Assembly (NCBI GenBank): GCA_022749815.1
Contig: JAKIWV010000003.1
Location: 284,048-348,047, forward strand
Reading direction: 5' to 3'
Source: Thermoplasmata archaeon
Lineage (GTDB): Archaea > Thermoplasmatota > Thermoplasmata > Lutacidiplasmatales > UBA184
Length of the DNA stretch: 64,000 nucleotides
The stretch's first letter is position 1. Each line of letters opens with the position of its first letter. A program made the translations under genes and the position numbers. The notes under the pieces were generated by a model. It saw only the letters and a program-made list of their open reading frames with translations, was not told the origin of the DNA and made no database searches. Below are positions 57,031-57,419 of this stretch, piece by piece.

Positions 57031-57057
57031 AATGGGCTCCGTCCCTCGCTCGCCTGT

Positions 57058-57164
57058 AGCCCCGTAGTGTAGTGGCCAATCATGCGAGACTCTGGATCTC
57101 GCGACGCAGGTTCGAATGCCGGGAGCCCCTACCGGCTCCCCGGCCGAGATTCCTGCCGGGGCTA
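57058..57164 (+). tRNA. tRNA-Gln (anticodon CTG) with a T-loop intron
   Basis: The mature tRNA is 73 nt: acceptor AGCCCCG/CGGGGCT, D-stem GTG/CAT, anticodon stem CGAGA/TCTCG with loop CTCTGGA (anticodon CTG), a 4-nt variable loop, T-stem GCAGG/CCTGC, discriminator A. The T-loop is interrupted after TTCGAA by a 34-nt intron; removing it restores TTCGAAT. The anticodon loop has no intron. No CCA is encoded. Confidence 0.93.
57117..57150 (+). other. tRNA-Gln intron in the T-loop
   Basis: The junction folds as a bulge-helix-bulge. T-stem 57106-57110 pairs with 57152-57156; the central helix TTCG (57111-57114) pairs with CGAG (57145-57148); 3-nt bulges AAT (57115-57117) and ATT (57149-57151) hold the cut sites. 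The intron helix starting GCCGGG (57118) pairs with the stretch ending at 57144. Cuts after the second bulge base give this 34-nt intron and an intact T-loop. Confidence 0.88.
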
Positions 57165-57221
57165 CCTCTCTTCAACCCGTCGTGACTGCGTCACGGTGCG
57201 GGGGTGCTCCAGCTCGGCCAA

Positions 57222-57248
57222 ACTTCCGGCGAGGCCGGTAAGGGCTTC
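57222..57248 (+). other. tRNA-Leu intron 1 in the D-loop
   Basis: The exon helix CTC (57213-57215) pairs with GAG (57250-57252). The central helix GGCC (57216-57219) pairs with GGCT (57243-57246). Bulges are AAA (57220-57222) and TCC (57247-57249); the intron helix CTT-CCGG (57223-57229) pairs with 57235-57242. This is a complete bulge-helix-bulge; cutting after the second base of each bulge frees a 27-nt intron. Confidence 0.82.
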
Positions 57249-57296
57249 CGAGGCAGGGCTTAGAACCCTGTTGCCTAGGGCATTCGCCGGTTCAAA

Positions 57297-57328
57297 GGGG
57301 ACCCGGCCTTTCGCCGGGTCCCGGGAAC
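57297..57328 (+). other. tRNA-Leu intron 2 in the T-loop
   Basis: The T-stem is 57286-57290/57330-57334. The central helix TTCA (57291-57294) pairs with GGGA (57323-57326) at three of four positions. Bulges are AAG (57295-57297) and ACT (57327-57329), and a perfect 10-bp intron hairpin spans 57298-57322. Cutting after the second bulge base gives a 32-nt intron and restores the loop TTCAAAT. Confidence 0.82.
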
Positions 57329-57419
57329 TCCGGCCCCCCGCACTCCTCCCTCGCTTGCAGGAGGCATCGCCCTGACGAACCGACCCGAACCTCCCATCTC
57401 TCCCGAGGCGATCGAACGC

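Follow-up and report, generated by a model that had tools for sequence, protein, structure and literature searches.

A BHB intron in the T-loop of an archaeal tRNA-Gln(CTG) gene and its counterparts across an order of Thermoplasmata

We report that positions 57058-57164 of the 64,000-nucleotide stretch of DNA analyzed here (the window) very probably form a working tRNA-Gln(CTG) gene whose T-loop is interrupted, between tRNA positions 59 and 60, by an archaeal bulge-helix-bulge (BHB) intron that would be removed by splicing. We place the probability of this reading, which draws on sequence comparison, at about 94%. The host is a soil-type Thermoplasmata archaeon represented by a metagenome-assembled genome (MAG) of 2.08 Mb in five contigs, 93% complete. 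A first-pass annotation of the window had described the intron in this gene only; the intron itself stands, and it proves to be one of at least 14 in the genome and part of a trait that runs through the order.

Results

Anatomy and fold of the tRNA-Gln(CTG) gene

Read directly, the acceptor stem (57058-57064/57157-57163) pairs at seven of seven positions and the T-stem (57106-57110/57152-57156) at five of five, and the discriminator is A 57164. Two 3-nt bulges span the exon-intron junctions on either side of a 4-bp central helix in which all four pairs form (Table 1). The geometry described in the first-pass annotation, namely a T-stem, a TTCG/CGAG helix with one G-U, two 3-nt bulges and an intron hairpin, is thus correct to the base. 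That annotation had also proposed secondary-structure prediction, and the unconstrained minimum-free-energy fold of 57058-57164 reproduces the T-arm/BHB, with a z of -2.9 for the whole precursor and only -1.7 for the isolated intron hairpin. Without the intron, the sequence is recognized by ARAGORN as a clean 73-nt tRNA-Gln(ctg), and cuts at the canonical bulge positions restore the loop TTCGAAT as originally claimed. The canonical intron site (37/38, one base 3' of the anticodon) is not the one occupied here.

In its unspliced form the gene scores 23.9 bits against the Rfam tRNA model, below the gathering score of 29, and ARAGORN assigns it a wrong 3' end (57056-57130). The earlier expectation that ordinary searches would miss this tRNA-Gln is therefore borne out for Rfam/Infernal and ARAGORN but may not extend to tRNAscan-SE 2.0, whose archaeal mode includes models for noncanonical BHB introns (PMC8450103).

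Directly downstream lies a tRNA-Leu(TAG) gene that the first-pass annotation had overlooked and that neither ARAGORN nor Rfam detected in the window. It is interrupted in the T-loop and probably a second time in the D-loop; with both insertions removed, ARAGORN reports a normal tRNA-Leu(tag) of 86 nt. The longer D-arm also recurs in Leu(TAG) of relatives.

Table 1. Features of the two interrupted tRNA genes in the window. R1, covariance model of the T-loop intron.
Feature	Position	Strand	Basis or remark
tRNA-Gln(CTG)	57058-57164	+	Read directly from the sequence; every cloverleaf stem intact
5' exon of tRNA-Gln(CTG), positions 1-59	57058-57116	+	Near-invariant among 40 orthologues
Anticodon CTG of tRNA-Gln(CTG)	57092-57094	+	
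BHB central helix of tRNA-Gln(CTG), 5' strand, TTCG (54-57)	57111-57114	+	Paired with CGAG 57145-57148
5' bulge AAT of tRNA-Gln(CTG)	57115-57117	+	Predicted cut after 57116; variability starts exactly at 57117
T-loop intron (59/60) of tRNA-Gln(CTG), 34 nt, internal hairpin	57117-57150	+	Fold; orthologue contrast; ARAGORN on spliced form
BHB central helix of tRNA-Gln(CTG), 3' strand, CGAG, intronic	57145-57148	+	One G-U with TTCG
3' bulge ATT of tRNA-Gln(CTG)	57149-57151	+	Predicted cut after 57150; exon invariant from 57151
3' exon of tRNA-Gln(CTG), positions 60-73	57151-57164	+	Direct reading; ARAGORN on spliced form; orthologues
tRNA-Leu(TAG), interrupted twice	57198-57342	+	Directly downstream of tRNA-Gln(CTG)
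T-loop intron (59/60) of tRNA-Leu(TAG), 32 nt	57297-57328	+	A57 faces G in the central helix; R1 56 bits
D-loop insertion of tRNA-Leu(TAG), ~27 nt	57222-57248	+	Probable second intron; exact ends uncertain

Exons and introns of tRNA-Gln(CTG) in relatives

Among 40 distinct Gln(CTG) orthologues with 34-nt introns, the p-distance is 0.007 (0.7%) in the exons and 0.472 (47%) in the introns, and conservation gives way to variation exactly at 57116/57117 and 57150/57151. The comparison with Gln genes of related genomes suggested by the first-pass annotation thus finds the BHB kept in 40 diverged orthologues with boundaries at the predicted bases, and together with the sequence itself it supports an intron between 59 and 60. 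Such a contrast between exon and intron is hard to explain unless the tRNA is functional and the insertion is removed from it. The nested intron helix of these orthologues pairs in only 70% of cells in a fixed register because the hairpin bulges sit at varying places, and RNAalifold retains just the T-stem and the central helix. A second, uninterrupted tRNA-Gln(CTG), named beforehand as the observation that would speak against the intron, was not found: a pattern scan of the genome (93% complete) returned one CTG gene and one TTG gene.

Within the home family, genera g1, g2, g3, g5, g6 and g7 carry the intron. In genus g4 (L283-L286) the gene has no intron and its T-stem has shifted toward the Gln(TTG) form, which suggests that the intron was lost there by gene conversion. 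A 14-nt insertion occupies the site of the intron in family f2. In two genomes of a sister family (f3; L313 and L314), an insertion of well over 150 nt, in which several hairpins seem to form, comes right after the anticodon and follows the 5' part of Gln(CTG).

T-loop introns in the host genome

Our tRNA census is a hand count from searches and selected genome stretches; all tRNA matches of the genome were also parsed by rules covering the acceptor, T and anticodon stems only. The parse yields T-loop introns in Gly(TCC), Ser(GCT, CGA, GGA), Arg(TCT, TCG), Glu(CTC), Ala(GGC), Gln(CTG), Leu(TAG), Asp(GTC) and Lys(TTT), and Asn(GTT) and His(GTG) bring the genes interrupted in this way to at least 14. 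All these introns lie at 59/60, measure 29-38 nt and share the same geometry (14/14). At least 21 of the 45 tRNA genes counted, about half, are interrupted: 14 in the T-loop (a third of all tRNA genes), four at the canonical site (Met, Tyr, Glu(TTC) and Leu(TAA)) and five in the D-arm, two of which are already counted. Asp, Asn and His are represented only by an interrupted gene among the matches found, and tRNA-Gln(TTG) is uninterrupted; tRNA-Trp and tRNA-Pro(GGG) were not found in the census of this 93% complete MAG. When the T-loop intron is removed from the 14 genes, ARAGORN returns 12 as complete, correctly named tRNAs. The other two, Leu and Lys, also have a D-arm insertion, and Leu is read correctly once this is removed too. 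D-arm insertions in Met(CAT), Arg(GCG), Lys(TTT) and Pro(TGG) of the same genome (L120, L122, L125 and L126) are probable introns as well; that of Met(CAT) folds as a clean BHB.

The single site and the ends GG...GGAAAC common to the T-loop introns of the genome could mean that introns were recently copied into other tRNAs from a single source, as has been suggested for Thermoproteales, an account that concerns origin only and is compatible with BHB splicing; intron transposition also has a precedent (PMC4090602). We hold this possible but somewhat doubtful, since intron cores from this genome resemble each other no more than shuffled sequences do (mean excess score 0.12) and the Gln intron is common to several genera. 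Any copying must be old here, given cores so unlike each other and a Gln intron that spans genera, and recent copying within the genome was rejected for want of core similarity above shuffles.

Constraint and covariation

At 14 pairs of the T-stem, central helix and first intron helix, 93.4% of cells are paired across 13 aligned introns, compared with 35-61% after shifting the partner by 1-3 bases, and the alignment holds 50 two-sided changes against 17 in shuffles. In a set of 92 distinct genes from home and related genomes, many of them orthologues and hence not independent observations, T54, T55 and C56 are paired with the intron in 92/92 and T60 occurs in all 92. The central helix was not a criterion for finding these genes, and slid registers pair less. 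G57 stands opposite C in 39/39 genes, and A57 (n = 53) opposite G in 47 and U in 6, never C or A. The fourth central pair is A.G in six of the 13 aligned introns, Gln(CTG) not being among the six. Opposite A57 the introns favor G over U; examples of T-loop introns in A57 tRNAs are those at 57297-57328 and L027:1501-1616. The 3' end of the intron always includes G-R-R, complementary to the TTC of the T-loop.

Distribution across the order, class and phylum

The covariance model R1 of the T-loop intron has matches in 106/106 genomes of the order, with 4-15 per genome in the home family (f1) and fewer or shorter ones in the order's two other families. In the rest of the class, families mostly have 0-4 matches, some up to 7, at lower scores; these low counts may be underestimates because R1 was built from GC-rich sequences. 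Weak matches outside the order were inspected in part, and several of those inspected are sound T-loop introns, for example in Leu(TAA), Lys(TTT) and, at 24 nt, Arg(TCT). A phylum-wide draw shows enrichment in f1 only. The T-loop insertions of family f2 (G001, e.g., L212 and L217), with 10 matches in one genome, are ~13-14 nt long and rank among the shortest archaeal tRNA introns.

Across 250 genomes of the class, T-loop introns were found in 159/188 with two detectable endonuclease repeats versus 2/57 with one, a count that spans related families, so that a Fisher test on it gives no fair probability. In one of the two exceptions (G031), the endonuclease match falls in a short open frame close to where a contig begins. 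Families f12, f16, f24 and f28 have a short endonuclease, mostly with one PF01974 repeat detected, and virtually no T-loop introns.

These comparisons bear on whether the interrupted genes work at all. They could be pseudogenes or relics whose decoding is done by other tRNAs: the uninterrupted tRNA-Gln(TTG) might wobble-read CAG, leaving Gln(CTG) alone dispensable, and genus g4 has an intronless Gln(CTG). Against this stand the 0.7% exon divergence beside 47% in the introns, the finding of Asp, Asn and His as interrupted genes only, and the conservation of T-loop introns through the order; we consider the idea highly improbable and rejected it on exon conservation and the sole isoacceptors. 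That the mature tRNA keeps the insertion as an enlarged T-arm is just as improbable: the only Asp, Asn and His tRNAs found would then have a destroyed T-loop, the bulges and the pairing fall exactly at endonuclease positions, and orthologues lacking the insertion exist. The tRNA T-loop region is a common integration target of archaeal integrases, yet a mobile or self-splicing element (group I/II intron or integration scar) is the least credible origin of the insertion, with a constant BHB geometry, a length of 29-38 nt far too short for a ribozyme intron and no Rfam family besides tRNA matched in the window, and the ribozyme intron was rejected on size and this lack of an Rfam match.

Splicing endonuclease and ligase

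A PF01974 search of the home genome finds one endonuclease ORF (P0001), of 355 aa with two repeats, and no second endonuclease gene; the same search finds no second subunit in 29 of 30 genomes, the last (G066) giving no match at all, probably through an assembly gap. P0001 carries both EndA repeats fused in one ORF, one repeat being catalytic, which is an alpha'2-like architecture. It shares 86% identity with proteins of "Thermoplasmata archaeon" MAGs and 65-67% with those of SubAcS/AcS and UBA184 MAGs, a group named Lutacidiplasmatales (PMC9287336), and it is from these relatives that the order of the host is deduced. Its predicted structure (pLDDT 93) has the EndA fold. The closest solved structure is M. 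kandleri EndA (5x89, Z 35.7), and the alpha'2 enzymes of A. fulgidus and Thermoplasma acidophilum score Z of about 30.7 and about 21.6. VIA-align and Foldseek matches that ranked lower than EndA proteins, such as Holliday resolvases, were attributed to a common nuclease fold.

The catalytic triad (Y291, H299 and K330) is invariant in 33 sequences. P0001 lacks the CSL/ASL loops to which broad specificity is ascribed, a lysine-bearing insertion that follows the YG motif and precedes the LSL helix in the catalytic repeat: it reads YGSRIGSRLELSLLEAVYL at the site where the CSL-inserted chimera 3p1y has its insertion, and no relative compared carries an insertion there. The genome also has an RtcB gene.

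Discussion

Our findings point most probably to a pathway in which the interrupted gene would be transcribed and T-loop bases 54-57 (TTCR) would pair in the precursor with the 3' part of the intron to form the BHB. The single two-repeat (alpha'2-like) endonuclease would then cut both 3-nt bulges and RtcB would join the exons, restoring TTCGAAT. As TTC occurs in nearly all T-loops and G-R-R complements it, almost any tRNA should allow excision of an intron whose last bases are G-R-R and two more, and this would explain both the spread over isoacceptors and the single preferred site.

BHB introns at 59/60 have already been listed for archaea, with Crenarchaeota and Nanoarchaeota as rich sources (PMC4090602), and that review cites Sugahara 2008 for noncanonical BHB introns of Crenarchaeota/Thermoproteales that include 59/60. 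The introns described here share with these the BHB motif, position 59/60, several introns per gene and the interruption of many genes. In Thermoproteales, however, the introns occupy scattered positions alongside an (alpha beta)2 enzyme bearing a CSL, whereas here one T-loop site dominates, the hosts are Thermoplasmata and the enzyme is a fused two-repeat protein lacking CSL/ASL. The canonical 37/38 introns of Euryarchaeota, of which the host genome also has four, have the same motif and enzyme family; ours differ in the T-loop site, in the 14 genes affected and in the A.G fourth pair of 6/13. The tRNA-Glu of Methanopyrus kandleri has D-loop introns (PMC3695527; PMC6379350), a euryarchaeal case of noncanonical introns alongside an EndA without CSL/ASL, but one that involves two tRNAs and the D-loop, with an EndA classed as (alpha beta)2 and of constrained broad specificity. 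P0001 resembles the alpha'2 enzymes of Archaeoglobus fulgidus and T. acidophilum in its two fused repeats, the triad in the C-terminal repeat and the fold, and differs in its 355 aa with two recognizable PF01974 repeats, compared with 305 and 289 aa, respectively.

What counts against the splicing reading is the A.G fourth pair in six of 13 introns, given that alpha'2-class enzymes are described as restricted to canonical BHB (PMC12397907; PMC6379350), the solved ones being called narrow in specificity (PMC6379350); the 93% completeness of the MAG and the relatedness of the orthologues also limit it. Reviews confine alpha4/alpha2 enzymes to canonical BHB (PMC4090602; PMC4033280; PMC6379350; PMC12397907). 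They also hold that enzyme architecture sets the intron repertoire and that tRNA introns are few in archaea with alpha4 or alpha2 enzymes and, according to one review, lie only at the canonical site (PMC4090602; PMC4033280). We nevertheless think it rather probable that a fused two-repeat endonuclease without CSL/ASL routinely removes noncanonical T-loop introns, including ones with a conserved A.G as fourth pair, and that the near-universal T-loop, as a ready-made docking site, has allowed a single intron design to become established in many tRNAs of one archaeal family.

We found no account of T-loop introns in Thermoplasmata in the open-access literature, the scope of our search. The main text of the paper naming Lutacidiplasmatales, which used tRNAscan-SE 2.0, makes no mention of introns (PMC9287336). 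As far as open-access papers show, the novelty lies in lineage and scale, in the use of one preferred site and in the type of enzyme.

For annotation, this means that tRNAs are overlooked or cut short by generic searches here, among them the sole genes found for Asp, Asn and His. Set against the rule stated in reviews, we describe a euryarchaeal family in which about half of one genome's detected tRNA genes are interrupted and the enzyme is a fused one free of CSL/ASL. If our view of this endonuclease is true, it would break the rule that pairs noncanonical tRNA introns with (alpha beta)2 or epsilon2 enzymes. The contrast between two-repeat and one-repeat endonucleases offers a natural test of enzyme-intron co-evolution.
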